A DNA stretch of 47,973 bases from Methanobacteriota archaeon (GTDB taxonomy: Archaea; Thermoplasmatota; Poseidoniia; Poseidoniales; Poseidoniaceae): NCBI GenBank assembly GCA_002692465.1, contig NZKH01000017.1:19298-67270 (forward strand), read 5' to 3'. Below, piece by piece: positions 16,731-45,800 of this stretch. Under the pieces are notes generated by a model. That model was not told the origin of the DNA. It made no database searches and worked only from the letters and a program-made list of their open reading frames with translations. Made by a program: the position numbers and the translations under genes. Positions within the stretch are counted from its first letter, which is position 1. Each line of letters starts with the position of its first letter.

Positions 16731-17339
16731 TTAGAACGTAGATTCCCAATCATCAATATTGTTTTCCTCAGCCCATTTTTCATCTGTAGTTTGTTTACGT
16801 TGCTTTAGCACTTCACGGCTTAATAACCAATATAGTAATGCTAAACTACGCCTACCTTTATTATTTGCAGGTAAAGCAAGATCTACATTTCTCAGATTAT
16901 TATTTGCATCACAAATTGCAACTATTGGAACTCCTGAGCCAACAGCTTCTCTAACAGCTTGTTGGTCTGCAGCAGGATCTGTTACAATTAAAACTCTAGG
17001 TTCGTAGAAAGAAGGTAATCTTGGATTTGTGAATGTTCCTGGAATGAATCTGCCCACTGATGATTTTGCACCAATCGCTTCAGCAAACATTCTTGCAGGT
17101 CTTTGACCATATTGTCTAGCACTTGTAACTACAATTTGTTCAGGTTCATACTGATTAAGAAATTTGGTAATAACACGAATTCTTTCATCTGTTTTCGTTA
17201 AATCAATTAAATATAAACCATCATCTCGAACTTCTTGAATAAACTTCATCATATCGGCACTTCTTTGCTGTGTTCCAATATTTACAGCGTTCGCTTCATA
17301 CGTTTCAAAATCAACTAATGGCGCCATACTCTCATCCAT
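16731..17339 (-). CDS. rps2: Small ribosomal subunit protein uS2 (archaeal S2)
   Basis: The 202-residue protein matches archaeal/eukaryal S2/SA: NAVNIGTQQRSADMMKFI, DGLYLIDLTKTDERI, VVTSARQYGQRPARMFAEA, GRFIPGTFTNPRLPSFYEPR, VLIVTDPAADQQAVREA, and the C-terminal R-R-S-L-A-L-L-Y-W-L-L-SREVLKQR. It assembles at the 30S back near the anti-Shine-Dalgarno region. In many archaea rps2 sits in an operon with rpoN, rpoK and enolase genes, but here it stands alone, convergent with dus and divergent from a membrane nuclease. The leader has TGAGG 8-12 nt before the ATG and a small G4/C4 hairpin. M5 at 17327 is an alternative start. Confidence 0.95.
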   Translation of the reverse strand: MDESMAPLVDFETYEANAVNIGTQQRSADMMKFIQEVRDDGLYLIDLTKTDERIRVITKFLNQYEPEQIVVTSARQYGQRPARMFAEAIGAKSSVGRFIPGTFTNPRLPSFYEPRVLIVTDPAADQQAVREAVGSGVPIVAICDANNNLRNVDLALPANNKGRRSLALLYWLLSREVLKQRKQTTDEKWAEENNIDDWESTF

Positions 17340-17463: not shown

Positions 17464-18921
17464 ATGGGCGTTTCCATGAACGAAGCAAAGCAAGATGAAA
17501 ATGGTTTTTGGAAAGATGCCGAAGGTATGGCAATATCTGTATCTGCAAGTGATTTAGAGCGACATGCATATTGTCCTTTATCTTGGAAATTAGCGAAAGA
17601 AGGGCATGATGGTAAGGGAGATGCAATTAGTGCTGGAATTGATAAACACCAAAAAATACATGATAAAATTGAATCATTTCATAATCGAAGTATTGATTCT
17701 CGTAGAGAAATTGCTGTGTGGACATGGACGCTTTCAATTGTAATTATTTTTCTAATAGATTCATTTGCTTTTGTTTACTTGGAAGATGATTATTTAGGAA
17801 TTTCAGGAGATGGTTTTGGTGCAGAAAAAGTAGGGGATTTAGACTCTGGATGGTATTATTTGACTATGTATGACACTCAAGCAGATGGATGGAATGGAAC
17901 AGATTTAATCATACTTGATGAAAACAACAATTTAATGGCTGGCCCATTTGAATTAAAAAATGGTTCAGAAGAAAAAACAACATTCAGATTAAGTTCAGAC
18001 TGTAATGGATGCATAATTATCATTAGGGGAGTTAGTTCAGATTCAATAGAAATATCTTGGTCATTATCTACTACAGATTTTGTGCCACCTCAGGAACTTG
18101 GTAAATTTCTTGTAATGTTATCAGCTAGTGTGTTATTTGTATCAATTTTAATGATTGCATTGCCTTGGAGAGAAAGATTCGGATGGAATGAACCAGAAAT
18201 AGAACATAATAAGGTTGTACAGACCTTTGATCAAAAAATTTTCAAACCAGTTTGGCAGACTGTTGATTATGTAGGCGGTTGGATTAGTGGAGGGAGAATA
18301 GAGGGCTTTGCTTTACTTTCTTCAATAGTAATTATGATTCACGGAGTTTCATTATACGCAGCAGATAATAGGCAGCAAGCAGCTTTAATTTTGGCTTTGG
18401 TTGCACTATTTTGGTTAATTATTTCGTCATCACAATTATTTAAGGTTCTTAGATCAATTGCAGCTAGAGAGAAATTAAGTGTTGAACTTGGAATAGATTA
18501 TTCAACCAAATTTAACTATAGTGATGATAGTAAAGAATCATCAATTTTATCTGATAAGGAAATTGGTCTAAGAGGGCGACCAGATCAAATTGTTGTTATT
18601 GATGGTAATTTTATTCCCGTGGAACAAAAAACTGGTAAAATTCCCAATGAACCACATTTAAGTCACAAAATACAACTTTTAGCTTACATTCATCTTATTG
18701 AATCATCTACTGGTACTTCTCCACCTTATGGGGCTTTGAGATACGGCGCTGATGTTGCTTTTCCAATAGAATGGAATGATGAACATAAGAATCTACTAAT
18801 GGATAATATTCGTGAAGTACAAAGGTTAACTGTTGAAGGTGGTGCAAAAAGAAATCATCAACAAATTGGAAAATGCAGAAATTGTTCACGTAAACATGTT
18901 TGCGAAGATTCTTTATCTTGA
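17464..18921 (+). CDS. Membrane-embedded Cas4/RecB-like PD-(D/E)XK nuclease
   Basis: The 485-residue protein carries a Cas4-like iron-sulfur nuclease signature split across the chain. C37 is in SASDLERHAYCPLSW, and the C-terminal set C471-x2-C474-x5-C480 completes the four Cys ligands typical of Cas4/AddB. The nuclease core has a possible motif-I His (H62/H66), D374 (LRGRPDQIVV), E387-x-K389 (VEQKTGK) and Q404-x3-Y408 (motif QxxxY). Between the first Cys and the core are four membrane segments (about 85-106, 214-234, 281-299, 305-325). An extracytoplasmic domain at about 107-210 includes a DTQADGWNG motif like that in pre-peptidase-type beta-domains. There is no CRISPR array or other cas gene in the window. 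The function, perhaps handling of DNA at the membrane, is inferred. Confidence 0.75.
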   Translation: MGVSMNEAKQDENGFWKDAEGMAISVSASDLERHAYCPLSWKLAKEGHDGKGDAISAGIDKHQKIHDKIESFHNRSIDSRREIAVWTWTLSIVIIFLIDSFAFVYLEDDYLGISGDGFGAEKVGDLDSGWYYLTMYDTQADGWNGTDLIILDENNNLMAGPFELKNGSEEKTTFRLSSDCNGCIIIIRGVSSDSIEISWSLSTTDFVPPQELGKFLVMLSASVLFVSILMIALPWRERFGWNEPEIEHNKVVQTFDQKIFKPVWQTVDYVGGWISGGRIEGFALLSSIVIMIHGVSLYAADNRQQAALILALVALFWLIISSSQLFKVLRSIAAREKLSVELGIDYSTKFNYSDDSKESSILSDKEIGLRGRPDQIVVIDGNFIPVEQKTGKIPNEPHLSHKIQLLAYIHLIESSTGTSPPYGALRYGADVAFPIEWNDEHKNLLMDNIREVQRLTVEGGAKRNHQQIGKCRNCSRKHVCEDSLS

Positions 18922-18930
18922 AATCCAATC

Positions 18931-19527
18931 TTATGTTTTACAATCTTCTTCTGTAAATTTTACACATTCAGAAGTGACTGTAATAATTGCAGCAAAATTG
19001 TCCTCAGCTTCTACAACTTCAAAGATATTGAATCCATAACCTCTTGCTTCAACTTCTAAGGTCCAAGTACCAGGAGTTAGTGGTGGTCTATGTACTTCAA
19101 CTACAGGCTCAATTGATTCACTTGCCAATTTTTCATAAAAAATTTCTCCATTTGGATTTTTTATCTTTACGTGTACATATCTTGCTTCTTGGCTAAGTGT
19201 TGAAACATTTATTCCAGTAGTATCATAAATCAATTCACGAACTTGTTGTGATAAATCAAGAGGATCTGGCATCGAAACTCGAACATAGATAATTAATTCA
19301 GATACGCTTTCTGTTACTTCAAATGTAGATGAGTTTTCATAAACTTCTGATTGGGCTGTTTGAAATGTATAACTAATATTTGTTTTTTCTTCAATATTTT
19401 CTACCGCCGGCGCCCCTCGCATTAATTCAAGAGATTCTCTTATGGGTACTAATCCAAAACAACCCATTGATGAAGTTACAATTAGCGAAGCAAAAATTAG
19501 TGTGAATATACTATTTGTACCCTTCAT
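18931..19527 (-). CDS. Secreted lipoprotein with Ig-like domain, function unknown
   Basis: The 198-residue protein starts at the ATG at 19527 (MKGTNSIF...). Its signal peptide ends in a lipobox, S20-M-G-C23, so it is probably lipid-anchored on the outer face. An in-frame ATG at 19545 would add MIWLCS and is less likely for a lipoprotein. The rest is a beta-rich domain ending with a predicted Ig-like strand pattern: PPLTPGTWTLEVEARGYGF and then DNFAAIITV. Two Cys, near the end (ECVKFTEEDC), could form a disulfide. I recognise no catalytic motif. Its stop is 9 nt from that of the convergent nuclease, and a candidate sRNA lies upstream in the same gap. Confidence 0.65.
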   Translation of the reverse strand: MKGTNSIFTLIFASLIVTSSMGCFGLVPIRESLELMRGAPAVENIEEKTNISYTFQTAQSEVYENSSTFEVTESVSELIIYVRVSMPDPLDLSQQVRELIYDTTGINVSTLSQEARYVHVKIKNPNGEIFYEKLASESIEPVVEVHRPPLTPGTWTLEVEARGYGFNIFEVVEAEDNFAAIITVTSECVKFTEEDCKT

Positions 19528-19580
19528 CGAACAAAGCCAAATCATTCATACGCTTGAAACCAACGCATAAAATTCAAGAT

Positions 19581-27832: not shown

Positions 27833-29581
27833 TTATGAGTTAGTAAATAACGTGGAAGCGGCCTCAATTGCAGATTCTACTAACCAATCAGAATTTATTC
27901 CTAGGAAGATAGTGGCTAAAGCACATAGTAATATTACAAACCTTAAAATAGAAACTTTAGGTAAAGGAAGCCTTGTTGTTGATTCTTCAAAGAACATTAA
28001 TACTCCAATTCTAAGATAATAATACAGACTTATTGCACTATTGATAAAGATTGAAATCGCTAAGAAAAATGTCCAATGCATCCCTAAAAATGTTGGAATT
28101 AGATCTATTTCTGTGTTTGTTAATACATCAGCAGATGCAACTTGGACGATTCCAGTTACCATTAGGAATTTTGACATAAATCCTGCAAGAGGAGGAACTC
28201 CCGCTAATGCTAGCATGAACACAAACATGGAAGTTGCAATGATTGGTTCTCTCTTTGCTAATCCATGTAAACTAGACATGTCAGTAACTTCATCTTCAGT
28301 TTCCAAATGTGAAATTACCATGAATGCTCCTATTTTGAAACTTATCAATACAAATAAATGGAAAATTATGGCGCCAATTATTAATTCTACAGCCATTACT
28401 CCCCCACTATTATTTTCAACGAAACTACCATTTTTCCAAGCAGCAACTGCAACTAATGCAGCCATCATATATCCCGCGTGAGCTACAGATGAATATGCAA
28501 GCATACGTTTTGGATTTTCACTTCCCAAAGCAGCTAAATTACCCCAAGTCATTGTAACTACAGATAAAATTCCAAATGCCAACATCCAAACTGCTGCATC
28601 TCCTGTTTCTGGTAAAGTAATAATCATTAAAATACGCATTAAACCAATAAATCCTAACGTTTTTGATGCAGTAGCTAAAAGGGCAGCAACTGGACTAGAT
28701 GCTCCTGAATATGCATCTGGAGCAACAAAATGGAATGGAACTGCACTTATCTTAAATCCAAATCCAACTAGAAGTAAACTGATTCCAAACAATGGTAATG
28801 TTTCTGGTGTAGCCATTGCAGCCCAAGTCGCTTCAAGAACTGACAATTGTAAACTTCCAGACCAAAGATATAGCAGTGACATTCCATAAAGTCCTATTGC
28901 AGAAGAAATAGCTCCAGTGATGAAATATTTTACACCCGCTTCAGTACCTGCTTTAGATTCTTTATGGAATGCAACCATAACATATATTGGAAGACTTGCT
29001 AATTCTAAACCTACAAATAATACAAATAAATTCATTGACATTGCAACTATTGTCATACCAAGTCCTGAAATTAGTAATAAAAGGTGGAAATCAACTTGTC
29101 TTCGATTATCTAATAATTGATCCAAATCATCATTACTTGGGTTTGAATCTGCTTGTAATCTATTAATGCTAGCAGCACTTACTAGGAGTAATGCTAGGAA
29201 AAACATTAATTCAAATAATCTACTGAATGAATCTAATTTAAGTAAATCAACAGGATTATTCCCCGTTGTAGTAAGTATTGTTGTTTCAGCACAGAATTTT
29301 TCAACAAGGTCATTACAAGTATCTCCTCCCAATGTTTGAATTAACATTGCAATTGCTAGAATAAATGTGAATACAGAAATTACACCAGGTAATCTTGGAT
29401 CAGAATTCCATTTGAATCTATTTCCACCAAGAAGAGCAGGGATTCGTAAACGTGTTAATGGTAAACGTATTTTTGCATCTCCTAAATTTGTAATTATAAA
29501 TAAAGTAAGAATACCACTAACCAATACTAATTCAGGTAAAAGGTATTTAATGCCCTCTACACTTACTGCATCATATGCCAT
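27833..29581 (-). CDS. nuoN: Complex I subunit NuoN (antiporter-like)
   Basis: The 582-residue membrane protein is the last gene of the complex I operon. It is one of three antiporter-like subunits that carry proton channels. Family blocks visible are LFVGLELASLPIYVMVAF (conserved Glu), GVKYFITGAISSAIGLYG, FKISAVPFHFVAPDAYSGA and PKRMLAYSSVAHAGYMM. It is longer than bacterial NuoN (about 480), mainly by an N-terminal extension and by an internal hydrophilic segment (around residues 130-150). The ATG directly follows the nuoM stop (1 nt), with a GGAGGTGGGG ribosome binding site. Confidence 0.93.
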   Translation of the reverse strand: MAYDAVSVEGIKYLLPELVLVSGILTLFIITNLGDAKIRLPLTRLRIPALLGGNRFKWNSDPRLPGVISVFTFILAIAMLIQTLGGDTCNDLVEKFCAETTILTTTGNNPVDLLKLDSFSRLFELMFFLALLLVSAASINRLQADSNPSNDDLDQLLDNRRQVDFHLLLLISGLGMTIVAMSMNLFVLFVGLELASLPIYVMVAFHKESKAGTEAGVKYFITGAISSAIGLYGMSLLYLWSGSLQLSVLEATWAAMATPETLPLFGISLLLVGFGFKISAVPFHFVAPDAYSGASSPVAALLATASKTLGFIGLMRILMIITLPETGDAAVWMLAFGILSVVTMTWGNLAALGSENPKRMLAYSSVAHAGYMMAALVAVAAWKNGSFVENNSGGVMAVELIIGAIIFHLFVLISFKIGAFMVISHLETEDEVTDMSSLHGLAKREPIIATSMFVFMLALAGVPPLAGFMSKFLMVTGIVQVASADVLTNTEIDLIPTFLGMHWTFFLAISIFINSAISLYYYLRIGVLMFFEESTTRLPLPKVSILRFVILLCALATIFLGINSDWLVESAIEAASTLFTNS

Positions 29582-31288
29582 TTAACCCCACCTCCCTGAG
29601 ATTTCATCTAACAAAACACTCTCGATAAGCTCGCTACTATATCCAGACATCATTTCAAAGAAGATGAATGGGAAAATACCAAAAATTACGATTAAAATAG
29701 CTAATGCCATAAGTCCGACCTTTTCAGTAAGATAGATGTCTTTAGGTTTTTCATCTCCTAAAGATTCAGGTGGTTGTGTGTTCTCTCCACCTTCAAAAAT
29801 AGTTCTTTGCATACTCCATAAGTAATATGCTGCAGTGATTGCTAAAGTGATTCCAGGAATTATTACCCACCATCCGAATTCAAACCACAATGCAACTAAT
29901 ACCGCTACTTCGGCTACAAATCCTGCTAATAGAGGTAAACCAAGACTTGCCATCCATGAAAACATCATATTTCCTCCTAACCAAGGACTATGTTTAGCCA
30001 TACCACGCATAGAACCGATTTCCAATGTGTGGTAGTGATGTTTGAAAGCTCCAGCAACACCAAACAGCATTGGTGAAATTAAACCATGTGCGAACATCAT
30101 GAAAATAGCCCCAGCAAAACCTAATGGTTGTAAACTAGCAATACCTAAAAGAATTATACCCATATGCGAAACTGAAGAATAAGCGACCATTCGTTTTAGA
30201 TTTGTTTGACCTAGGCATACCCATGCCCCGTAAAATAAACTAATCATACCAATAATCATCAACAACATCTGAAATTCAACTACTGCATGGGGGAACATGG
30301 AAATTGGTATTCTAAACATACCATAACCGCCCATTTTCAACATAACACCAGCTAATAGCATTGAACCTCCAGTTGGTGCTTGAACGTGAGCATCTGGCAA
30401 CCAAGTATGGAATGGAACGACAGGAAGTTTTACTAGGAATCCCACCATAAATAATACAAATAATAGTTTTTGAGTTCCTGCACCAAGCCAAATATTTCCA
30501 AGGATTACTTCTTGTTGAGCATTTTTAATCATTTCATGCATATCGAAACTTCTTCCCGTTATGCTAGAATTTGCTGTTGAAGGATCTTGTAATAAATAGA
30601 GTATGATGATTCCTAAAAGCATTAAAATTGAAGCACTAAATGTATAGATAAAGAATTTTTGAGCAGCATACTTTCTTTCTTTTCCGCCCCAATTTAAAAT
30701 TAAAAAGAACATTGGAACAAGAGTTAATTCCCAGAATACATAGAACATAAAGAAATCTAGTGCCACAAATACTCCGATTAAACAACCACCCATTAGAACT
30801 AGTAATGGATGGTAATACCACGGTTTCTTTTCATTCCAGGTAGTAATAATTGTAACAGGGACTAAAAGTGCAGTTAACCATACCATTGGCATTGAAAGAC
30901 CATCAATTCCAACATGCCATTCTGCACCAATAGATTCAATCCAATTATATTCGACTTCATACATATATTGATTGAAAGTAATGTTTGCCCAATGCACATT
31001 CATCAAAATATCAGTCATCATTAAACTTGTTATTGTTAAAACTATAAGCGAAATTCCAAGAGATGCATATTTTATTGTTTCAGAAATACTTTCCTTTCTC
31101 CAAGCAGGAACTGCGGATGAAAATCCCATTAGCAATAAAGAACCTAAAATTGGAAGGCCGATGAGTGGAAGAGTAACCCAATCATCTTCCATTAAAGAAA
31201 TAGGAGATAAGAACATCATTGCGGCGATTGCGATAAATAAACCACCAATTACATACATACCATCATTTAGTTTATTTTCAGCCATCAT
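29582..31288 (-). CDS. nuoM: Complex I subunit NuoM (antiporter-like)
   Basis: The 568-residue proton-channel subunit has the conserved FYVFWELTLVPMFFLI (key Glu), KLPVVPFHTWLPDAHVQAPTGGSMLLAGVMLKMGGYG and KRMVAYSSVSHMG. It follows nuoL by an ATGA overlap: the nuoL TGA and this ATG (31288) share two bases, so a coupled translation is likely. An upstream TTG would extend the frame (start 31300) but the ATGA junction is the better start. A C-terminal cytoplasmic part before the last helix carries TQPPESLGDEKPKDIYLTE. It precedes nuoN with no gap. Confidence 0.94.
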   Translation of the reverse strand: MMAENKLNDGMYVIGGLFIAIAAMMFLSPISLMEDDWVTLPLIGLPILGSLLLMGFSSAVPAWRKESISETIKYASLGISLIVLTITSLMMTDILMNVHWANITFNQYMYEVEYNWIESIGAEWHVGIDGLSMPMVWLTALLVPVTIITTWNEKKPWYYHPLLVLMGGCLIGVFVALDFFMFYVFWELTLVPMFFLILNWGGKERKYAAQKFFIYTFSASILMLLGIIILYLLQDPSTANSSITGRSFDMHEMIKNAQQEVILGNIWLGAGTQKLLFVLFMVGFLVKLPVVPFHTWLPDAHVQAPTGGSMLLAGVMLKMGGYGMFRIPISMFPHAVVEFQMLLMIIGMISLFYGAWVCLGQTNLKRMVAYSSVSHMGIILLGIASLQPLGFAGAIFMMFAHGLISPMLFGVAGAFKHHYHTLEIGSMRGMAKHSPWLGGNMMFSWMASLGLPLLAGFVAEVAVLVALWFEFGWWVIIPGITLAITAAYYLWSMQRTIFEGGENTQPPESLGDEKPKDIYLTEKVGLMALAILIVIFGIFPFIFFEMMSGYSSELIESVLLDEISGRWG

Positions 31289-33483
31289 ACCATCCCCCAA
31301 ATTAATCCTACCAATAGTAGTGAACCAAGCGCTACCATCATGATATAATCACGAGCAGATCCTGTTGTTAACTTTCTAATCCAAGTACTAGTTGATTGAC
31401 TTCCAGATTCTATTCCTTTTATTACTCCGTCAATACCCTTTTTGTCAAATAATGCTGCACCTAAACCAATTGGTACAATTATTTTCAAACAGAACCAATC
31501 ATAAAGGTCATCAAAATACAATCTTCTTCTTAATGCTTCAGCTAATCCAGATTCTGCTAGAGATTTATTGTTGAATTGCCATCTATTTCTAACCATCCCT
31601 GATATTTTAACTAACCAAGAAACTGTCGGTATTGCTTTTTCTCCATCCTTTAGGTTTCCACCATATAGAGACATTGCTATGATTGGACCAATTAATGAAG
31701 ATAAGCCAATAGTAGCCCATGTTAATATTAAGAACGTTGAATCGATAACACCTTCTTTATCCATTGCTAAAAATGCATGTTTCATTTCATAGACTAAATC
31801 ATAATGAAGTGCATGACCCGTAGAGACCCAATTAACAAAGTGTAAAGAAGCAAATACGATACCACCTAGAGTCATGAATGTTAGAATTACTAGAGGGAAT
31901 TTAATCCAAGGAGTTTCCTCATGTACATGTTCTGCAACTTTGGTCTTAGGTTTTCCAGCGAAAGTCATAAACCACATTCTACTCATGTAAAAACCAGTCA
32001 TACCTGCAGAAATTAATAATAAAATTGCAGGAATAAATAGTAAATAACCACCATCATAAATTGCTGCTTTCCAAACTTTAGCAATAATTCCTTCTTTTGA
32101 CCAGAAACCACCAATTAGTGGAATACCTATGATACTCATGGATCCTGCGGCCATTGCTGTTGAAGTGATTGGAAGTTTAGATGCTAATCCACCCATATTT
32201 GTCATATCTTGGGCATCGAACCCTTCATGCTCACCATGCGAAATGTGGTGATGTGCATGATGCATTTCATGAATTACTGAACCAGAAGCCATGAATAACA
32301 TTCCTTTAGCCATTGCATGATTGAAAAGGTGGAACAATGATGCACCTAATGCGAACAATGCTAATTCTGATTTCCCTTTACTAGCGAACCATAATGCCGC
32401 ACCAAGTCCTGTGAAAATATACGCTAGTTGACTCATAGTCGAATAGGCAAGGACTTTCTTAATATCATTTTGAACAAATGCAATTCCCGCAGCCATGAAT
32501 GCAGTAATACCTCCAATCATTGCAATAATTATTCCAACATCAGCAAGATCTCCAATTAAATTACTATCTGCGGTTCCAGTAAAGATTGGAAACATTCTTG
32601 CGACTAAGTAAAGACCCGCATTAACCATTGTAGCTGCATGAATTAAAGCAGAAACTGGAGTTGGGCCTTCCATTGCATCAGGCAACCATACATGAAGTGG
32701 GAATTGTGCGGATTTTCCTACAGCACCAATAAACATCAAAATTAACGCGGTCTTAAGTAAAGTCATATCAACTGGATTTGTGAAATAATTCCAGCCAAAG
32801 ATAACATCAAATTCTAAAGAGCCGTATATATTCCACATTATTATTAATCCAATCATTAGGAAAACATCTCCAACACGTGTTGTTAAAAATGCTTTTTTTG
32901 CAGCAGAAGCAGCAGAAGGCTTTTCATAATAAAATCCAATTAAAAGATAAGAACAAAGACCCATTATCTCCCAGAAAATAAACAACCAAAGGAAGTTATC
33001 CGCTAATACCATACCTAGCATTCCAGAACAAAAGATTAGGAATTCAGCATAGAATCTATGATTTCGATTATCATTTATTTTATCAGTATTCATGTATCCA
33101 ATTGAAAACCAATTAATTAAGAAACATAGGAAGGACGCTACGAATAATAGCATTAATGAAACATGATCAATATAAATTCCAAATCCTAAATTAACTCCAT
33201 TTGTCATTCCATCCGAACGTAAAACATCAAATGTAATCCAATCCAAGATATCTTTTCCTTGTCCATGATGCATTTCACCTATGAATTGTGCGACAACCAT
33301 CGAAGTTAGAATTAATACAACTCCCATAGACATTAATGAAATTGCACCACCCTCTTTCAAAATATTTTTCCACCAATCTTTACCATTGAAATACTGTCCA
33401 AGGAATAGAATTATTGGAAAAGTTAGTAGGGGAACAAATGGAATTGTAGCAACCCAAAACTCTACAGAAACATCACCAGCCAT
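31285..33483 (-). CDS. nuoL: Complex I subunit NuoL with a His-rich loop
   Basis: The 732-residue subunit is the largest antiporter-like part, with the long C-terminal amphipathic helix typical of NuoL. Visible blocks are IFWEIMGLCSYLLIGFYYEKPSA (E172), KSAQFPLHVWLPDAMEGPTPVSAL (K257), and FNHAMAKGMLFMASGSVIHEMHH. After GSVIH it carries a 14-residue insertion with seven His (residues 405-419), absent from common bacterial NuoL as I recall. It follows nuoK in the operon and overlaps nuoM by an ATGA-type junction. The ribosome binding site is GAGGGAG before the ATG. Confidence 0.94.
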   Translation of the reverse strand: MAGDVSVEFWVATIPFVPLLTFPIILFLGQYFNGKDWWKNILKEGGAISLMSMGVVLILTSMVVAQFIGEMHHGQGKDILDWITFDVLRSDGMTNGVNLGFGIYIDHVSLMLLFVASFLCFLINWFSIGYMNTDKINDNRNHRFYAEFLIFCSGMLGMVLADNFLWLFIFWEIMGLCSYLLIGFYYEKPSAASAAKKAFLTTRVGDVFLMIGLIIMWNIYGSLEFDVIFGWNYFTNPVDMTLLKTALILMFIGAVGKSAQFPLHVWLPDAMEGPTPVSALIHAATMVNAGLYLVARMFPIFTGTADSNLIGDLADVGIIIAMIGGITAFMAAGIAFVQNDIKKVLAYSTMSQLAYIFTGLGAALWFASKGKSELALFALGASLFHLFNHAMAKGMLFMASGSVIHEMHHAHHHISHGEHEGFDAQDMTNMGGLASKLPITSTAMAAGSMSIIGIPLIGGFWSKEGIIAKVWKAAIYDGGYLLFIPAILLLISAGMTGFYMSRMWFMTFAGKPKTKVAEHVHEETPWIKFPLVILTFMTLGGIVFASLHFVNWVSTGHALHYDLVYEMKHAFLAMDKEGVIDSTFLILTWATIGLSSLIGPIIAMSLYGGNLKDGEKAIPTVSWLVKISGMVRNRWQFNNKSLAESGLAEALRRRLYFDDLYDWFCLKIIVPIGLGAALFDKKGIDGVIKGIESGSQSTSTWIRKLTTGSARDYIMMVALGSLLLVGLIWGMV

Positions 33484-33492
33484 TTTTCTCCC

Positions 33493-33795
33493 TCAATTTT
33501 TTAATAATTCAACTTCATCTAAAGATATTGTTTTGTGTTTTGAATAAAGTGATAAGAAAATCGCCAAACCTATGGCAACTTCTGCAGCAGCAATAGCTAT
33601 TGCAAATGCAGCATACATCCATCCTGACTCATCCCCATAATGAGCAGCTCCAGCTACAAAATTGAGATTTACAGCATTAAGAATTAATTCTATGCACATT
33701 AATACGATAATTGCATTCTTTCTAGTAAAAGCGCCCCATAGTCCGATGGAGAATATGATTACTCCAAGACCAGCAACCCATGAAGGATCAATCAC
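33493..33795 (-). CDS. nuoK: Complex I subunit NuoK
   Basis: The 100-residue protein has three membrane helices and the family motif RKNAIIVLMCIELILNAVNLNFV with the conserved Glu in helix 2. The length equals the usual NuoK length when started at GTG 33795. That start sits 5 nt after a strong GGAGGTGA site, whereas an ATG at 33810 lies within that site and would add five residues. It overlaps nuoJ2 by 8 nt. It conducts protons together with NuoJ and NuoA in the membrane arm. Confidence 0.9.
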   Translation of the reverse strand: MIDPSWVAGLGVIIFSIGLWGAFTRKNAIIVLMCIELILNAVNLNFVAGAAHYGDESGWMYAAFAIAIAAAEVAIGLAIFLSLYSKHKTISLDEVELLKN

Positions 33796-34057
33796 TTGAC
33801 TCACCTCCATTCCAAACCAAATTTTCTTTTCTCTCGTCTCTTACTAAATATGCAGCACCAACCATTGCCATTGAAAGTAAAACACCAATCAATATTACAA
33901 CAAATCCCCAATCAACTAGCATGTTTGTAGCAAAACTAATGTTGTCAAGAGAACCACTTGATGAATCCCCCCAATTTGATGAATCAGCAACATTAGAAAA
34001 AATAAGGATGCCAACAAGAAGAATTCCAATTCTTACCAATGTGGAAACCATCTTCAT
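33788..34057 (-). CDS. nuoJ: Complex I subunit NuoJ, C-terminal half (separate gene)
   Basis: The 89-residue protein has two membrane helices (LVRIGILLVGILIFSNV and DWGFVVILIGVLLSMAMVGAAYLV), corresponding to the second part of bacterial NuoJ. The first part is a separate gene immediately upstream, joined by an ATGA overlap (its TGA, this ATG at 34057). Split nuoJ is known in methanogen fpo and haloarchaeal nuo operons, so this is likely genuine, not a frameshift. GGSSD-rich linker residues come between the helices. It overlaps nuoK at its 3' end. Confidence 0.85.
   Translation of the reverse strand: MKMVSTLVRIGILLVGILIFSNVADSSNWGDSSSGSLDNISFATNMLVDWGFVVILIGVLLSMAMVGAAYLVRDERKENLVWNGGESSD
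33801..33808 (-). promoter_or_regulatory. Strong ribosome binding site for nuoK
   Basis: GGAGGTGA on the minus strand is an 8-base match to the archaeal anti-Shine-Dalgarno region and is followed after 5 nt by GTG at 33795. It decides the nuoK start and lies inside the end of nuoJ2, so translation is coupled. Confidence 0.6.
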
Positions 34058-34317
34058 TCAAAATCCTCCATAATTTGAGTTCTAGTTAACATTACACCAA
34101 ATAAAACAACTAGCATTACACTTGCTAAATATACAAGAATTTGAATTGCAGCTAAAAACTCAGCTTCCTGTAAAATAAATACACCCGCAACGGCTAGGAA
34201 AGCGAAAATAAGTGACATCATAGAATGGGCAACCTTTTTTGCATATACAGTACCTAGTGAACCACCAATTGCAATTATTGCAAATAGGAAAAAGATTGAA
34301 TTTTCTACAACACCCAT
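34054..34317 (-). CDS. nuoJ: Complex I subunit NuoJ, N-terminal half (separate gene)
   Basis: The 87-residue protein has three membrane helices. The start NSIFFLFAIIAIGGSLGTVYAKKVAHSMM and the block AEFLAAIQILVYLASVMLVVLFGVMLT match the N-terminal half of NuoJ/ND6, including the conserved pi-bulge-type Tyr region in YLASVMVLVL-like sequence. It is followed by the C-terminal half with a 4-nt ATGA overlap. It begins 2 nt after the nuoI stop. Both halves together reach about 175 residues, the normal length of NuoJ. Confidence 0.87.
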   Translation of the reverse strand: MGVVENSIFFLFAIIAIGGSLGTVYAKKVAHSMMSLIFAFLAVAGVFILQEAEFLAAIQILVYLASVMLVVLFGVMLTRTQIMEDFE

Positions 34318-34319
34318 GT

Positions 34320-35267
34320 TTACGCCTCTGCTTTTGCTTTCCTCTTCTCTCTTCTCGCTCGTTCTTTTGCTGCACGCTTTGCTAATTCAGCATCTACCGC
34401 TTCTTGATGTTGTGAAGGTAATACTCTGGTTCTTTCAGCGTCAAACCACAAGTCTTGACGAGTAAATCCTGACATGCCATCATATTCATTTGTCATAAAG
34501 AAACTACTAAAATCGCATGCTTCCATACACAATCCACAAAACATACATCTTCCGATGTCTATTCTTCCACTTACTATTTGATCATCAGCAGGGAATAATG
34601 AAGTTGTAGCGATTTCTGTTTCAGTCCCTGAATCATTCCATCGAATTTTAGCATTTTCTCCACTTAAATCAATAATTTCTCCAAACCTATAGTCTGCACT
34701 AGGACCTTTGTGTGCAGTAAAAATATCGTAATCTTGATTTTCTTTTTTACCGGATTTAATCGGAATTGCTGCCCAACCTCCTACTTCTAAATCCTTTCCT
34801 AAGCCTGCATTTTCTCCATCTTTTGTTTCCATCACATCTACACGTAATTCAGTTGTCATGTGTAAACAATCATTCGGACAAATACTAACACATAGTTTAC
34901 AAGCAGTACAAGTTTCCCAAATTACTCCAATTCTTCCATTATATTCGCCTGGAACAAATAACCATGGTTCCATATCTTCTAATCGTTCATATGGATACAT
35001 TATCGTTACAGGACGATAAATTGATGGGAAAAGATCACTAGATTCTCTGTCAGCAGTATATTCATGCTCTGAAGGGGAATTGTATTTGTTGTCTTTTGTT
35101 CTTAATTTTGAATTGTCATCTAATAATGTAGCTGGTTTGTTATGATATTCATTCAGGAAGAATCTTCCAATAATTGGGAATGTTCTCAAAGCAGTTTTCA
35201 AAGTCATCCATAATGGACGAATAATTAAATTTCTGAAATTTGGTTGTGCTCTTGGGTGCATTGGCAT
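34320..35267 (-). CDS. nuoI: Complex I 8Fe-8S subunit NuoI with a large insertion
   Basis: The 315-residue subunit has two [4Fe-4S] motifs: C120-x2-C123-x2-C126-x3-C130 (CTACKLCVSICP) and C241-x2-C244-x2-C247-x3-C251 (CMFCGLCMEAC). It passes electrons to NuoB. The distance between the clusters is about 110 residues instead of the usual 35 or so. The extra 70 or so include a stretch like a small beta-barrel (FGEIIDLSGENAKIRWNDSG). An N-terminal extension of about 90 residues and a Lys/Arg/Ala-rich C-terminal helix are also present. It lies between nuoH and nuoJ1 in the operon. Confidence 0.9.
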   Translation of the reverse strand: MPMHPRAQPNFRNLIIRPLWMTLKTALRTFPIIGRFFLNEYHNKPATLLDDNSKLRTKDNKYNSPSEHEYTADRESSDLFPSIYRPVTIMYPYERLEDMEPWLFVPGEYNGRIGVIWETCTACKLCVSICPNDCLHMTTELRVDVMETKDGENAGLGKDLEVGGWAAIPIKSGKKENQDYDIFTAHKGPSADYRFGEIIDLSGENAKIRWNDSGTETEIATTSLFPADDQIVSGRIDIGRCMFCGLCMEACDFSSFFMTNEYDGMSGFTRQDLWFDAERTRVLPSQHQEAVDAELAKRAAKERARREKRKAKAEA

Positions 35268-35281
35268 TTTTTTTCAACTCC

Positions 35282-36847
35282 TTAATCTTCTCCTACTGTG
35301 TGCGTTCCTGCTGGTGTCATTGTTTTTGTATGTGACATTCTTGATCCATCCCAATCAGGGTCTTCATCTACTGAAAGTATAACGAATAAAATTAGTGAAA
35401 CAATTGTGATTGCAGCTGGAATAATTAATCCAGAACCAGGGCCCCATGTAGTCCCATCGTATACGTAAAGACGTAGAATAAAAGCAAAAGCCAAGTTAAT
35501 CAACGATAATGGTAGTAAATATTTCCAGCCTAATTCTAATATTTGATCAGTTCGAATACGTGGGAAAGCGGCTCTAACCCAAACAAATATTGCAAAGAAA
35601 AACCATGCTTTTAACAGAACCCAAACAATTCCTGGGATAGCCAAATAAGCATTACCCACTACTCCTAAATCACCAATTAAATTTGCAAATGGTGCATGAT
35701 AACCCCCAAAGAAGAAATGTGCCATTAAGATACAAGCAGCATAGCAACGTAAATATTCAGATGCAAACAAAAGACCCCATCTCATACCTCCATATTCTGT
35801 CCACCAGCCTTCTACTAATTCAGCCTCAGCTTCTGGCATATCGAATGGAATTCTTTCAACTTCAGCAATCATTGTAATTAGGAATAATAATGCTCCAAGC
35901 GGAATTAAGAAGAAATTCCATACGCCTGAACCATATTGGAAATCAATAATCTCAATTATATTCAAACTTCCAGATAATACACAAACTGCAAGAATTGTAA
36001 TTAGAAGTGGTATTTCATAAGCAGTTAATTGAGCAGCACTTCTAATGCCACCTAAAAGTGAGTATTTGTTATTTGAAGACCAACCTGCGAAAAACACACC
36101 TAGTGGAGCAATACCAAAAATTGCAAATGCAAACAATACCGACATTTCAGGATCTGCAGCATAAATCCCAGAACCGAATGGTAAGAAACCTAGAATTAAA
36201 ACTGTAGATGAAATTATTAAGAATGGTGCTAATTCATAAATTAATTTATCAGCTTTATTTGGAACCATGTGTTCCTTTGTTAAGAACTTCATTCCGTCAC
36301 CTAAACCTTGGAAAAAACCAGGGAACAGATACCAAACGCCATGCCAACTACGATTATTTACGCGGTTAACTGTTGCTTGAGAACTTTTATTTCCAGCAAC
36401 ACTATTCAAAGAATTAACTACCCAACCAACAGGTGCTCCTAATCCAAATGGTAGTAGAGTCCACCATTTGCCTGCAGTCACTCCATTTTCACCAACCCAT
36501 AAACTTCTAAATGTTGTTGTAGCGCCTCTTCTATCCATTAATCTGGCAATCAATTTTCTTTCAGTCCAAATGACTGTAATAAATTGAGAAAGCATAATGA
36601 TTGTAAATATAATTACACACATTGTAAAGGTTTGAACACCGGTGTTAAAAATATTGAAAATTTCTCCAGTACATCTTGGTATAGTATCGAATAAAAAGGT
36701 ATTTGCTGCTGTAGTTCCTTGAGCATCACACAATGAGGTTCCCGCATTAATATCAATTGAATTAAATGCAACGGAGTGAATATCTGTAGCAGAACTTTCA
36801 ATGGCTTTGTTGACATTCAACCAATCGTATTTTGCATCTTTTGACAT
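35282..36847 (-). CDS. nuoH: Complex I subunit NuoH with N- and C-terminal extensions and an insertion
   Basis: The 521-residue subunit forms the quinone-entry region with NuoB and NuoD. Blocks seen are TERKLIARLMDRRGA, GFFQGLGDGMKFLTKEHMVPNKADK, ERIPFDMPEAEAELVEGWWTEYGG (the conserved acidic quinone-channel segment) and RAAFPRIRTDQILELGWKYLLPL. NuoH is usually about 330 residues. Here the extra length is an N-terminal extension of about 60 residues, a 65-residue insertion after helix 1 (residues 109-176) and a C-terminal tail. The ATG at 36847 is preferred over 36883 because GGTGA precedes it by 6 nt and it avoids overlapping nuoD. Confidence 0.9.
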   Translation of the reverse strand: MSKDAKYDWLNVNKAIESSATDIHSVAFNSIDINAGTSLCDAQGTTAANTFLFDTIPRCTGEIFNIFNTGVQTFTMCVIIFTIIMLSQFITVIWTERKLIARLMDRRGATTTFRSLWVGENGVTAGKWWTLLPFGLGAPVGWVVNSLNSVAGNKSSQATVNRVNNRSWHGVWYLFPGFFQGLGDGMKFLTKEHMVPNKADKLIYELAPFLIISSTVLILGFLPFGSGIYAADPEMSVLFAFAIFGIAPLGVFFAGWSSNNKYSLLGGIRSAAQLTAYEIPLLITILAVCVLSGSLNIIEIIDFQYGSGVWNFFLIPLGALLFLITMIAEVERIPFDMPEAEAELVEGWWTEYGGMRWGLLFASEYLRCYAACILMAHFFFGGYHAPFANLIGDLGVVGNAYLAIPGIVWVLLKAWFFFAIFVWVRAAFPRIRTDQILELGWKYLLPLSLINLAFAFILRLYVYDGTTWGPGSGLIIPAAITIVSLILFVILSVDEDPDWDGSRMSHTKTMTPAGTHTVGED

Positions 36848-36851
36848 TTTT

Positions 36852-37997
36852 TCACCTATCCGTTTCTCCAATACATGGATCAAATGAACCCATTATAGCA
36901 GGAATATCTGCAACTTTGTAACCAATCATGGTTTTAGCAACAAATGGAATTGTAATAAACATTGGAGATCTAATACTCATTCTGTAAGGGAATTCACCTC
37001 TTCCTTTTTTACCTCCCCCACCTACGAGGTAAAATGTTGATTCTCCTCTTGAATCTTCAAAATTATGGAATCCTGTTTGTCCAGCAGGAGCTCTTAGTGG
37101 AGGTTTAAGATATATCATTTCATCCTTCTTGTTGTAATGCGTTTCAGCACCACCTGGAATTTTATCAAGTGCTGATAGAATCATATTACAAGACTCAATC
37201 ATTTCAGTCATCCTTACACGATACCGATCATAACAATCAGATCCTTCATTAGATGATGCTTTTTCAATTGCAGCCACTCCATCTATTTGGTCATAAACAC
37301 TGTATGGATGTGCCCATCTTACATCATAATTTACTCCCGCAGCTCTGACATTTGGCCCGGTTACTCCCGCATTAATCATATCTTCAGCTTTACAAGCCCC
37401 AACTCCTTGAGTCCTTACAAGGAAAATTGTGGATTCATCTAATAGCATTTCATATTCTTTTAGTCTCTCTAGGAACATTTCAATTTTTGCTCTTGCTCTC
37501 ATTGCAAAACCAATTGGCAGATCACGCTTTACTCCACCTACTCTTGGGAAATTATAATGCATTCTACTTCCACCTAATTCTTGTAATAAATCAAGAAATA
37601 GTTCCCGATCACGAAGACACCAAACAAATACAGTAAGATTTCCTACATCAGGACAATAAGCACCTAGCCACATAAGATGGCTTGCGATTCTTTGCATTTC
37701 CACAGCGATTAGACGAATATATTCAGCCCTTTCAGGAACTTCAGCACCTAATAGATTCTCAGCGGCATAAATATAGGATTGTGCCCAAGTCATAGCAGAA
37801 GCATAACATAATCTGTCACAATAGGGAGTGATTTGAGTATAATCTCTTGCCTCGCAGATTTTTTCAACACCCCTGTGGATATATCCTAATTCCGGAATTG
37901 TATCTACAACTGTTTCCCCATCAACTTTAACTCTTAGAGTCCATAAACCATGAGTCATTGGATGTTGAGGTCCCATTGTAATCCACATTTCTGCCAT
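36852..37997 (-). CDS. nuoD: Complex I 49-kDa-like subunit NuoD
   Basis: The 381-residue peripheral subunit forms the quinone pocket. It has the N-terminal GPQHPMTHG block, GYIHRGVEK, RIASHLMWLGAYCPDVG, GGSRMHYNFPRVGGVK and the C-terminal AIMGSFDPCIGETDR, where common NuoD ends DPVxGExDR. Residues that would be hydrogenase nickel ligands are absent, as in respiratory forms. It is a single gene, not fused to NuoC. It follows nuoC by 9 nt, with GAGGAG upstream, and nuoH starts 4 nt after it. Confidence 0.94.
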   Translation of the reverse strand: MAEMWITMGPQHPMTHGLWTLRVKVDGETVVDTIPELGYIHRGVEKICEARDYTQITPYCDRLCYASAMTWAQSYIYAAENLLGAEVPERAEYIRLIAVEMQRIASHLMWLGAYCPDVGNLTVFVWCLRDRELFLDLLQELGGSRMHYNFPRVGGVKRDLPIGFAMRARAKIEMFLERLKEYEMLLDESTIFLVRTQGVGACKAEDMINAGVTGPNVRAAGVNYDVRWAHPYSVYDQIDGVAAIEKASSNEGSDCYDRYRVRMTEMIESCNMILSALDKIPGGAETHYNKKDEMIYLKPPLRAPAGQTGFHNFEDSRGESTFYLVGGGGKKGRGEFPYRMSIRSPMFITIPFVAKTMIGYKVADIPAIMGSFDPCIGETDR

Positions 37998-38006
37998 AAT
38001 AACTCC

Positions 38007-38696
38007 TCATTTCTTTTTGTCTGAATCTAATGGTTTTCTCATAAAACCTTGAGCATCATCATACATTTCGTTATGATCATGATAACGTATCTTGTGTTGT
38101 TTTTGTAATGGATGAAATCCAGGAGGAGAGTCGTGAGGGTTTAGAACCCGCATCATATTTTCATGACCTTCAAATTCGATTCCTACTAAATCCCAAGTTT
38201 CTTTTTCATTCCAGTCAGCACCCTCCCAAATAGATTGAACACTTGGTACTTTAGGCTCATCTGTTTGAGGAAGGACTATTGATACTTGATATTCTAGAGG
38301 TATGTCCATTCCTGAAAGTTTAGATGCATTAATTACAGTCTGTTCTCCTACGTTTGGATTTTTAATTCCTTTACGTGTCAAATGAACTACAACCTCCCAA
38401 CCTTTTTCGGGAGTTCCCGGATTATATCCCGGTTTACCTGAAAAAAATTCAAATTCTAAAGGATAATGAATTCCTGTAATCATACTCAAATAATCAACAC
38501 CTTGTTCAAATCTTAACCATTTTGCTAAACTTGGCCAATGAGCCGGAGGACAATCTATATGCACAAATGAGTATTTTTTACCACTCCTATGTTCACATGC
38601 TTCCGCTTTTATTCCAGCAATCTCAAATCTTTTATTAGTTTCCAAAACAGCATTTTCAACCGCTGTATTATTTTGTTCTAGAGATATACTTTGCAT
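38007..38696 (-). CDS. nuoC: Complex I 30-kDa-like subunit NuoC
   Basis: The 229-residue peripheral subunit carries the 30-kDa signature near the C-terminus: WNEKETWDLVGIEFEGHENMMRVL. The N-terminal 40 residues are helical and less conserved. It binds next to NuoD in the connecting arm. The ATG at 38696 is preceded by GAGGTGG, a good ribosome binding site. A C-terminal extension after the signature has KQHKIRYHDHNEMYDD, about 35 residues beyond the core. It lies between nuoB and nuoD. Confidence 0.92.
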   Translation of the reverse strand: MQSISLEQNNTAVENAVLETNKRFEIAGIKAEACEHRSGKKYSFVHIDCPPAHWPSLAKWLRFEQGVDYLSMITGIHYPLEFEFFSGKPGYNPGTPEKGWEVVVHLTRKGIKNPNVGEQTVINASKLSGMDIPLEYQVSIVLPQTDEPKVPSVQSIWEGADWNEKETWDLVGIEFEGHENMMRVLNPHDSPPGFHPLQKQHKIRYHDHNEMYDDAQGFMRKPLDSDKKK

Positions 38697-38710
38697 GACA
38701 GTTCCACCTC

Positions 38711-39304
38711 TTAATCTTCCCCAATAATAATTGGAGCATCTGTTTCACTTTCTTTTACAGGCGGGGCACCAATTCTGATAATTTTCTCTCTTAATTTTCC
38801 AAATCCATCAATTAATGCTTCAGGACGAGGAGGGCAACCAGGAATATATACATCTACAGGAATGATTGTATCTACTCCTTCAAGAATATTGTATGATTGG
38901 AAATATGGTCCGCCTGAAATAGCACATTCTCCCATTGCAATACACCATTTCGGTTCTGGCATTTGTTCCCATAGTCTTACAATTGGATCTGCAAATTTTT
39001 TACTTATTGGGCCATTTACTAACAACACATCACATTGACGAGGAGATGAACGGAAGAAAACTCCGAATCTTTCAGCATCAAATCTAGGTGCTCCTGCAGC
39101 AGCCATTTCAAGTGCACAGCATTTTATTCCAAGGTGAAGCGGGAACAAACTTTTCCTTTGAGCCCAATTGAAAAACCTTCCACCTAGTACGCCAATCAAT
39201 TGTTTAATTTTAGTTGCTTTAAGAGCTTCATCAGTTACATTACCTACAACATCAATCAATGCCCTACTATTGAATATAGTGAAATTTTCAGAGTCGTCAG
39301 TCAT
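38711..39304 (-). CDS. nuoB: Complex I subunit NuoB (N2 cluster)
   Basis: The 197-residue subunit holds the terminal N2 [4Fe-4S] cluster with ligands in [17 protein letters not shown] and [10 protein letters not shown]. The Arg/Tyr-type region [21 protein letters not shown] is also typical. From here electrons pass to quinone. The ATG at 39304 is chosen because GAGGG precedes it; a longer TTG at 39316 would create an ATGA-like overlap with nuoA but is less likely. A 40-residue N-terminal extension precedes the core. Confidence 0.94.
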
Positions 39305-39312
39305 TTTATCCC

Positions 39313-39765
39313 TCAAATATAGATTCTTCCCCTTTTACGGAAAACATGCCAAACTCCTAAACTCATTAGAAGCAAAAATATTCCTGCATTCATCATTGCA
39401 ATTGCAGCATCTTGATGACTTCTAGAACTTACATCAGCATTCATTGTAAGAGTTCCTGCTAATGCAAGAAACATGAATGCAATATCAAAAACTAGGAAAA
39501 TAATGGCATACCAATAATATTGGAAATGAAACTGAATCATTGCCCCTCCGACAGGTTCTGAACCACATTCATATGTTGTCAATCTTCTAGGATACATACT
39601 ATGGTCTCTCTCATATCCAGGCAAGAAATAGGATCTAGTTATGTTTGGATTTGCAGAGTCAGTAACAGGCCTTACAAATCTAGTAACAATGAATTGACTT
39701 AATGGAAAAAGTATTCCTAGAATAGCCATTAATCCTACGGCTACGTAACTCTCGGTCACGGTCAT
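39313..39765 (-). CDS. nuoA: Complex I subunit NuoA
   Basis: The 150-residue subunit has three membrane helices. It has the loop motif [35 protein letters not shown], the NuoA/ND3 quinone-loop signature with its conserved Cys. The first gene of the operon, it is preceded by a leader of about 55 nt with a G6 run, a TATA element at 39841-39850 and a 12-bp palindrome. The order A-B-C-D-H-I-J-J-K-L-M-N is the standard archaeal arrangement without E, F and G. Confidence 0.93.
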
Positions 39766-42809: not shown

Positions 42810-45800
42810 CTATTTCAATTTTAGGAACTTATCTTTATGCTTCATTGCATGTTCTCTTGCTTTATCTTCAGGATATCCTGTTGAAATTAATTGTTTGACA
42901 TATTGTTCTATTTTTTGTTTAGCTTGAGGTGTTAAATCTGTGTCTTCAGGTTTTGTTTGAAATGCCGGGGCAATTTTTGGCATATTTGTTATTGGTGGAA
43001 TATTTAGTTGATTCGGTAGTGGAGGTAAGGGTGGTAAATTAATAGAATTAGATTTTTTATTGAAAAGACTTTCTTTAGGAATAAAAATTACTGCGCCACC
43101 AATTAATGCAATAATTAATATTAACAATCCAAAAATCATAAAACCATTATTTCCTGAATTTAAACTGGCATTATATTCTTCATTGCCTTCAGATATTACA
43201 TTGAAAATATAGATACCCCCCACTATATTTTCGTTATTTTGTAATTTTAGTTGGATTTCATATGTTCCTACATCCATAGGCATTAATTCAATAGTAACTC
43301 TTTTACTTTCTCCGGCATCTAATACAATCCAATTTGTATCTTTAAATTCTGAATCCCATTCTTCGGGTGAAATGATATCTAATTTATCACTAATTTTTTC
43401 GTTTCCAAGATTTGTAACTTCGAATTCTATTGTTGTCATTTTATTATATTCTGTTAGTGGTACTGAAACATCAACCCATTCTAATTTAAATTCTTGAGGA
43501 ACTGTCAAATTAAATGTACTATTAACGACATAATTATCTTCAAATTCCAAAATAAACTCAATTACTTCAATATTTCCTGCTTGCATTGTTAACGGAATTT
43601 TTAACAAACAAGTCGCTATTTTTATTTCAGAAGCCTCAAAAGTTTCAAGAGGATCACAGGTGGCATCCCAATTATTATTACTTTGAATCATCACATTATT
43701 TGGAGTAAAACTTCTACTTCCATCATTAGAAATTGCCCATCTAATTTTAAAATCTACTCCAATTGGTGGCTTCTCTCCATTTTCTAGATCTATTTCTTGC
43801 CCATCATTTAATTGTAAATCTAAAAATTCAATAGATGGCTTTGGAAGATATATTACCTCCAACTCATCAAATAATTCAAATATAGAACCTTCCAATGTTG
43901 TCATAATAAGTTTGAATGTTCCGCTTTCTGCTTGACCATTTCCTTGAACAGGAATTATTACATCTACATATGAATTAGGCTCAATTTCATAAAATTTAGT
44001 ATAAGTTAGCACAATCCAACCAGATGGCATGATTGCATCAACAGTAACAGAAGACAATGAGTTTCCACTATTAATTAATTTAAATGACAAGTCTAACCTT
44101 TCATTAGGCATTACTTTCTCAAGAGTCATATTGGTTATCGGATTTATCATTTCATAAGTTCCTACGATTAATTCAACTGATTTATTCCACATTTGTTCAG
44201 GGTTATTTTGGGAAATAGCCTTAATATTCAATTCAATTTTTGTCCCGGCAGATATCAATGCTACAGGAGGATAAATGACGATACTCAAATCTTTTTCATC
44301 GGATTCAGCCATTAATCCACTCTCGATTGTGCTTAAGTCTGTATTTTCGAATTTAGCATCCCAATATTGAGGCGGTTCTAAGATAATATCATAACTTTGA
44401 ACAGAATTACCACCATTGATAAATTTCAAATCAAATGTAGTGAGGCTAATTGGTGAGACTAAAATTTGTGAATTTGTAGACATAATTGCCAATGGTAAAT
44501 TTTGTACATAAAGGCTTATTGTTAGACTCTCTTCAATATTATTATCTGTGTCTGTTCCAATTAATTCTATGTCATAATATCCTGGTTCAGGCGGGAATTC
44601 TATTTCAGGAATACTCAATGAAATAAGAATTTCTTTAGTTTCTTGACCTTCTAAATTATGATTTGTTTTTGAAAAACTTACAGTCCATTGTTTAGAAAGT
44701 AAAGTAGAGCGCTGAATGGGGTTATTCGCCCTTATTGTTGTATTTGTTTCAATAAATGCAGTATTTGTAATATTTACAGACCATCTTGCTGAATCACTAT
44801 TTGAATTTGTCCATTCTATTACTGACATCCCAGAATTCAAATTAATTCCGGGTGTTGTAACTTGAATATTATCATAATAGACATTATTAATTTCATCCAT
44901 TTCATCTAACACATCATTAGAATCAGCATGAATTGAAATCTCTTTCACACCGGATGAATCGGGAGTCCAATCCCATGTCAATACAGTTTTAGCTCCAGTT
45001 CCTAATGTTAATTCGTAAGAACCAATTGCTTGCCCATCAATTTTTAATTCTACATCAAAATCATCTGCACCAGTATTTCCAATGTTTTGAATTTCATAAC
45101 TAATTTGAATTTCTTCACCTACACTTGGAATTACTTTACTAGTAATTAATGAGCCAGGAACTGGAATAACATCAGGACGTAAATCATTAATTCCAACTCC
45201 ACTTGCAGCTATTGCAAACATTTGAGCTCTTGGTCCACCATGTTGAACATCAGATACAGTAATTTTCCAAAGACCTGTTTGAGCATTATCGACTAGAATA
45301 ACTTCAACATTATTTGTATCATCAGCCGAACCTCCAACTACAGACCTTCCGTTTTGAAACACGTTACCCAAGTAAATTGTGCCATCGGGTGCTTCAACTT
45401 CTAAATTCAAATCATTAACTAATTGTTTTGTAGAAAATCTAGATCCCATATGATCAGACCACGCTAAAACAACTTTGAATGGAGAACCAGGTGATGTTAC
45501 ATTTATGTTGTATTCCAAACTAGTACCACTATTGGAAAGTGAGGATCTGTCATCTACCCAAATTCCTCTTCCTCCAGTTGGTGCAATTGAATTTTGAAGA
45601 TTAATACGCCCCCAACCCTCATTATTATTTGGAATATCTCTCGTACCCACATCTTGAGCCCCCAAGATAAGCATCGCTTTCATTAGTGCTCCCTGTGGAG
45701 ATGCTCTTTCAGCAACCTCAGTCAAATATTCTCTTACTAAGGCTGCAGCTCCTGCAGCATTAGGAGTGGCCATTGAAGTACCGGTATATTCCATATAATA

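Follow-up and report, generated by a model that had tools for sequence, protein, structure and literature searches.

The closest described relatives of the protein analyzed here are the solo-Cas4 nucleases, exemplified by SSO0001 and Pcal_0546 (Hudaiberdiev et al. 2017, PMC5704561). The window, a 47,973-nucleotide stretch of DNA from a Poseidoniaceae archaeon (phylum Thermoplasmatota, order Poseidoniales), encodes a protein that shares with them the PD-(D/E)XK motifs, the His ligand, the four Cys, and the C-terminal Cys spacing, and its gene likewise lies outside CRISPR loci and is vertically inherited (PMC5704561). Membrane helices are not described there, whereas in the window protein a membrane block separates the His motif from the Asp motif. 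In Cas4-Cas1 and UvrD-Cas4 fusions the Cas4 domain is likewise joined to another module, but the junction is at the domain end rather than within the domain, and these fusions have no membrane part. RmuC is a membrane-linked PD-(D/E)XK-type nuclease whose membrane helix lies outside the nuclease fold; a Pfam scan gave no RmuC match in the window protein. Shield is described as an RmuC-domain defence protein (PMC10270631).

The likeness to SNIPE is one of working principle. SNIPE is a constitutive membrane nuclease with a cytoplasmic catalytic domain, and its membrane tethering was shown experimentally to protect the chromosome, yet to let injected phage DNA be cleaved (PMC13190303). It differs in combining a GIY-YIG nuclease with DUF4041, in having a single N-terminal helix, and in being a bacterial, patchily distributed defence gene. 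Neither GIY-YIG nor DUF4041 was detected in the window protein by the Pfam scan, and a sequence relation to SNIPE was not found.

The gene occupies positions 17464 to 18921 on the plus strand, as do all features of the protein given below, and is an ORF of 485 aa with an ATG start; the opposite strand of this interval is stop-rich and holds no competing ORF. Residues 349 to 481 match PDDEXK_1 (3.6e-9) and Cas_Cas4 (6.7e-8), both over the Pfam cut-offs. PADLOC gave a Cas4 match of 2e-15, and TIGR00372 cas4 (1.6e-13) scored 50.9 bits, short of its curated equivalog cut-off of 65. The sequence-only reading had named four Cys (C37, C471, C474, and C480), D374, E387/K389, and Q404/Y408 as the defining residues, and all were confirmed at these positions; the search with Cas4 and PDDEXK_1 profiles that it proposed likewise gave matches. 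The N-terminal nuclease part (residues 22 to 84; 17527 to 17715), predicted to be cytoplasmic, carries Cys37 (17572 to 17574) and His62 (17647 to 17649) and, once the insert is deleted, aligns to the N-terminus of solved Cas4. The nuclease core (residues 345 to 485; 18496 to 18918), supported by profile matches and motif counts, contains D374 (18583 to 18585), the ExK motif at residues 387 to 389 (18622 to 18630), QxxxY at 404 to 408 (18673 to 18687), and C471/C474/C480 (18874 to 18903).

Alignment of the family (A1) revealed that C37, H62, D374, E387, K389, Q404, Y408, C471, C474, and C480 are invariant in 26/26 aligned Poseidoniales proteins. Phylum-wide, C37 is present in 60/60 and H62 in 56/60 homologues, and the RecB-type motifs are kept in proportions from 56/60 up to 69/69. 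The catalytic and Cys residues never vary among the 26 Poseidoniales proteins and hardly do so in up to 69 homologues across the phylum, which rules out chance occurrence. As expected of a Cas4 family member (PF01930/COG1468 type), the protein has the H, D, ExK, and QxxxY motifs, one N-terminal and three C-terminal Cys spaced as in solved Cas4 proteins and predicted to hold an Fe-S cluster, and similarity across the whole fold, seen in both halves with an insert-deleted profile and over the gathering score with Pfam. Cas4 proteins are usually compact, at about 160 to 220 aa without membrane helices, although this size is not strictly defining; at 485 aa and with four membrane helices, the window protein is therefore called a membrane variant of Cas4. 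These data support its assignment as a Cas4-type PD-(D/E)XK nuclease built into a membrane protein, and nuclease activity is predicted from the intact motifs.

The insert, of about 260 to 280 residues, holds four transmembrane helices together with a beta-domain on the outside and lies between the His62 and Asp374 motifs. That a block parts the first Cys from the core had been noted previously; the block is present, but the division needs correcting, as the metal ligand His62 also falls on the C37 side, away from Asp374. SSO0001 coordinates its metal through His62, Asp99, and Glu113, and its Fe-S cysteines are residues 32, 188, 191, and 197; in Pcal_0546 the Fe-S cysteines are residues 64, 200, 203, and 209 (PMC4176176). 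The counterparts in the window protein are His62, Asp374, and Glu387 and Cys37, 471, 474, and 480. The C-terminal C-x2-C-x5-C spacing is the same in the window protein, SSO0001 (188/191/197), and Pcal_0546 (200/203/209), while the His-to-Asp distance is 37 residues in SSO0001 (62 to 99) versus 312 in the window protein. Given the identical Cys spacing and the expanded His-to-Asp distance, the fold is therefore interrupted by the membrane block between these two motifs. In line with this, a phylum profile with the insert deleted (A3) matched the solved Cas4 structure 4r5q at 7.4e-12 over profile positions 3 to 184, covering both halves, with further matches to Cas4 8d3l (5.2e-10), Cas4/Cas1 7mi4 (7.4e-9), and SSO0001 4ic1 (1.3e-7). 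The full-length profile matched 4r5q at only 0.034, although the two profiles were drawn from different sequence sets, such that deletion alone is not the whole cause of the gain. With the membrane block deleted, the Pfam PDDEXK_1 alignment spans positions 2 to 247. An AlphaFold model of the whole protein (pLDDT 35, pTM 0.19; alignment of the window protein and one partial homologue) was discarded as unusable, and the fold assignment therefore rests on profiles.

Hydropathy analysis placed four helices at residues 88 to 106, 215 to 233, 282 to 300, and 308 to 326, the first being followed by a loop of 108 residues, in agreement with the four helices and extracytoplasmic domain noted from the sequence. 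TM1 (17725 to 17781) is kept in the family; TM2 covers 18106 to 18162; TM3 (18307 to 18363) forms part of a hairpin repeat match at residues 286 to 331, and TM4 (18385 to 18441) is also matched by the hairpin repeat. Between TM2 and TM3 lies a conserved cytoplasmic loop (residues 234 to 281; 18163 to 18306) with a PWR ... GGWxxGG motif, of which P234, W235, R236, G271, G272, W273, G277, and E280 are invariant in 26 proteins. At the chosen threshold, 26/29 Poseidoniales proteins show four helices and the remainder three or five. Every segment of the gene, membrane hairpins included, is under purifying selection in the window's genus, with dN well under dS.

The sequence-only reading would have been undermined by Cys37 and the C-terminal Cys lying on opposite faces of the membrane. 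The data point against such an arrangement: nearly all members have an even number of helices, and homologues encoded as two ORFs are cut in the outside loop. Because of these even helix counts and split genes, together with a surface-type beta-domain in the TM1-TM2 loop, we strongly infer that both nuclease halves are on the cytoplasmic side, where they would fold together. Taken together, the anatomy of a membrane-embedded Cas4-type nuclease appears highly probable.

The TM1-TM2 loop of the window protein contains an extracytoplasmic "DGWNG" beta-domain (residues 108 to 210; 17785 to 18093) with homology to surface-protein domains. This domain of about 95 residues is confined to the window's genus, and the corresponding loop in other Poseidoniales has 7 to 17 residues. 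The four complete beta-domain copies form one clade with support of 100/100, and the domain entered once, in the window's genus; three rows of the family tree (L071, L077, and L069) were badly trimmed, and only the beta-domain clade was used. A one-protein search showed the domain to be homologous to the repeated DGWNG domains of a 2518-aa protein of the same genome (best domain i-E 1.8e-18), lending independent support to the outside location of the TM1-TM2 loop, since the 2518-aa protein is a predicted surface protein. The latter (L083, on G000:C15) has a signal-like N-terminus and at least five DGWNG beta-domains, and its family is the apparent source of the inserted domain. Within the genus the beta-domain is the fastest-evolving segment, at 72 to 80% identity and with dN of 0.11 to 0.19, still well below dS. 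Modelled alone, it gave an all-beta, rough beta-sandwich of six strands (pLDDT 64). A structural assignment was dropped, as the best Foldseek match had an E of 0.058 and VIA Z scores reached 8.0 to unrelated beta-sandwiches.

Families f16, f27, and f6 divide the membrane Cas4 protein between two neighbouring ORFs, which often overlap; the break falls in the outside loop. The first ORF, of about 90 to 100 aa, carries the Cys/His motifs followed by a C-terminal helix; the second, of about 170 to 240 aa, has one helix at or near its start and then the nuclease core. Both parts were located for about 14/19 loci, and for the remaining loci the second part only was identified. Split loci reside on chromosome-sized contigs in G228 and G239, which argues against sequencing error as the cause of the split, and the parts of one pair (L101) overlap by ATGA. 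With the cut in the outside loop, one active site is possible only with both parts at the inner face. An Fe-S nuclease split in this manner over two membrane polypeptides would be an unusual fold assembly at a membrane. Upstream of the helix in the second ORF of another pair (L086) there is no ATG, GTG, or TTG, and a ribosome-binding-like motif, GAGGTGAT, lies just upstream, hinting at use of an unusual start codon or a frameshift.

A profile search found matches in 121/194 sampled Thermoplasmatota genomes. Among fetched Thermoplasmatota homologues, the number of helices between the N-terminal motif and the core is two (6 proteins), four (10), or eight (4), with one additional homologue of the four-helix class showing three helices over threshold. 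A hairpin profile trained on two- and four-helix proteins found four copies in each of two eight-helix proteins and two in a third, and no matches among 26 unrelated multi-helix ORFs; four other ORFs that did match were members of the membrane-Cas4 family itself. The membrane part thus grows by hairpin duplication. The build is real and conserved and constitutes a variant of the solo-Cas4 nucleases. In a limited search of open-licence literature we found no membrane Cas4 with such a build, and to this extent the earlier suggestion of an undescribed build holds; the family itself is Thermoplasmatota-wide, and only the beta-domain is genus-specific. Some genomes differ in copy number or form. 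A second, broken copy with several frames and one internal TGA is located at G077:C6:85777-86948 in a Poseidoniales genome, the intact copy being on another contig; G018 and G024, of one genus, each have two gene copies, versus a single copy in nearly all others; and G242 holds a four-helix fused form (L065) plus a second, separate one-helix nuclease part (L095).

Across Poseidoniales the gene sits in a conserved order of three HTH genes, dihydrouridine synthase, uS2 on the opposite strand, the nuclease gene, a convergent predicted lipoprotein, and a large CARDB surface protein. In the window, the divergent uS2 gene is at 16731 to 17339 on the minus strand (PF00318, 2.2e-19), and the convergent gene, for a predicted lipoprotein of about 200 aa that is present in the compared Poseidoniales loci, is at 18931 to 19545 on the minus strand. 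Neighbours in other orders differ and are mostly housekeeping genes. The survey of relatives proposed from the sequence thus revealed stable core synteny within Poseidoniales, but no functional partner conserved beyond this order-level synteny and none phylum-wide. There is no defence island at the locus. The earlier remark that no CRISPR lies nearby was upheld, as no CRISPR-like direct repeat was found in the window and Cas1 had 0 matches in the 58 Poseidoniales genomes; cas1 is thus neither near the gene nor in its genome, unlike for a CRISPR-associated Cas4. No other Cas4-family match was found in the window's genome, and phylum-wide there is no positive association with Cas1 (23/121 positive versus 24/73 negative genomes). 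A location outside cas loci and vertical inheritance, with synteny conserved across Poseidoniales, are as in solo-Cas4. No relatives were confirmed in viral contigs or found in phage records, and the only plasmid matches, over the core, were to CRISPR Cas4/Cas1 or other Cas4-like proteins. The gene is present in 40/58 Poseidoniales genomes; the 18 genomes without it belong to streamlined genera, in which it is dispensable.

The function of solo-Cas4 proteins is unsettled, and a phylum-wide, membrane-fixed version restricts the possible location of the DNA substrate and opens the question to testing. The reading we favour is an integral-membrane solo-Cas4 with a fixed place in the chromosome: a PD-(D/E)XK nuclease of the Fe-S kind, interrupted by one or more membrane hairpins, whose halves would join on the cytoplasmic side. 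The membrane anchor would keep the nuclease away from the chromosome, at the sites where foreign or linear DNA reaches the membrane or rests there. Such DNA would be degraded or trimmed, a gatekeeper role like that of SNIPE with no shared ancestry of the nuclease fold, and in the window's genus the outside domain might bind either a partner on the cell surface or an arriving particle. This role is favoured by analogy with SNIPE, with repair at the membrane as its main rival, and the statement as a whole, from membrane solo-Cas4 to action on incoming DNA, is tentative and falls somewhat short of probable. The gatekeeper role itself and a ligand of the outside domain we infer weakly. Stable core synteny and broad vertical inheritance, unlike typical defence genes, count against it, as do the lack of a conserved functional partner phylum-wide and the 18 Poseidoniales genomes without the gene. 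If incoming DNA is cut, the protein would represent an archaeal equivalent of the newly reported SNIPE strategy, based on another type of nuclease, in the planktonic archaea that are most abundant in the surface ocean. The broader proposition, of a distinct Thermoplasmatota class of membrane-Cas4, hairpin-interrupted or in two polypeptides, that would act as a constitutive, CRISPR-independent gatekeeper and gained an outside recognition domain in one marine genus, is doubtful.

A membrane-attached repair or replication nuclease, trimming chromosome ends, flaps, or decatenated DNA at points of contact between chromosome and membrane, would be a housekeeping enzyme in keeping with the vertical inheritance and core-gene neighbourhood (uS2, Dus, and a KH protein). 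We consider this possible but rather unlikely, as it leaves the phylum-wide membrane hairpins and the outside domain unexplained. NurA, a known archaeal resection nuclease, is common in archaea, and its absence from Poseidoniales (0 matches in 58 genomes) is in favour of repair; Poseidoniales may use another end-resection nuclease. The 18 gene-negative genomes, however, also lack NurA, which shows that the gene is not an obligatory NurA substitute, and substitution for NurA was dropped as unsupported. Solo-Cas4 proteins are themselves thought to serve repair or defence and to evolve vertically (PMC5704561).

DNA uptake had also been suggested from the sequence, and the nuclease could reduce DNA that comes in by type IV filament-linked machinery to single strands or nucleotides. 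T2SSF has at least two matches in all 40 positive Poseidoniales genomes and none or one weak match in the 18 negatives, and phylum-wide type IV filament platform proteins are found in 118/121 positive versus 33/73 negative genomes (Fisher's p 7e-18, ancestry ignored). This agrees with the published distribution of flagella genes, which are reported throughout Poseidoniaceae but in half of the Thalassarchaeaceae genera (Rinke et al., PMC6461757). These observations lack phylogenetic independence: one event of joint loss in streamlined Thalassarchaeaceae would fit the RpoB tree, and genome reduction explains joint loss equally well. Uptake of the canonical ComEC type is unsupported, the ComEC channel (PF03772) being found in 0/58 genomes. 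We therefore regard a role in import as improbable and the type IV filament association as a lead only. One genome, G226 (97% complete), may represent a positive lineage without type IV filaments.

The outside domain in the window's genus and the variable hairpin number, suggesting that the membrane part does more than anchor the protein, would also suit a sensor that perceives a ligand or envelope damage and switches on the cytoplasmic nuclease, possibly killing an infected cell. Since the outside loops of most Poseidoniales members have just 1 to 17 residues, without a ligand domain, and no gene for a sensor, a kinase, or an antitoxin-like protein was seen in linkage, we hold this to be quite improbable. 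That the membrane region is a passive by-product in an ordinary solo-Cas4 with no membrane-specific role has in its favour that the nuclease core is recognised most readily, but it is very improbable indeed, given that the hydrophobic hairpins are kept phylum-wide, persist even in the two-ORF forms, and evolve under purifying selection in the window's genus.

Elsewhere in the window, ORF translations revealed a Complex I-like gene cluster on the minus strand (27833 to 39765), beside RIO-type kinase and aIF1A-like genes, and a predicted 1511-aa subtilisin-like surface protease with a C-terminal membrane helix (42810 to 47345).
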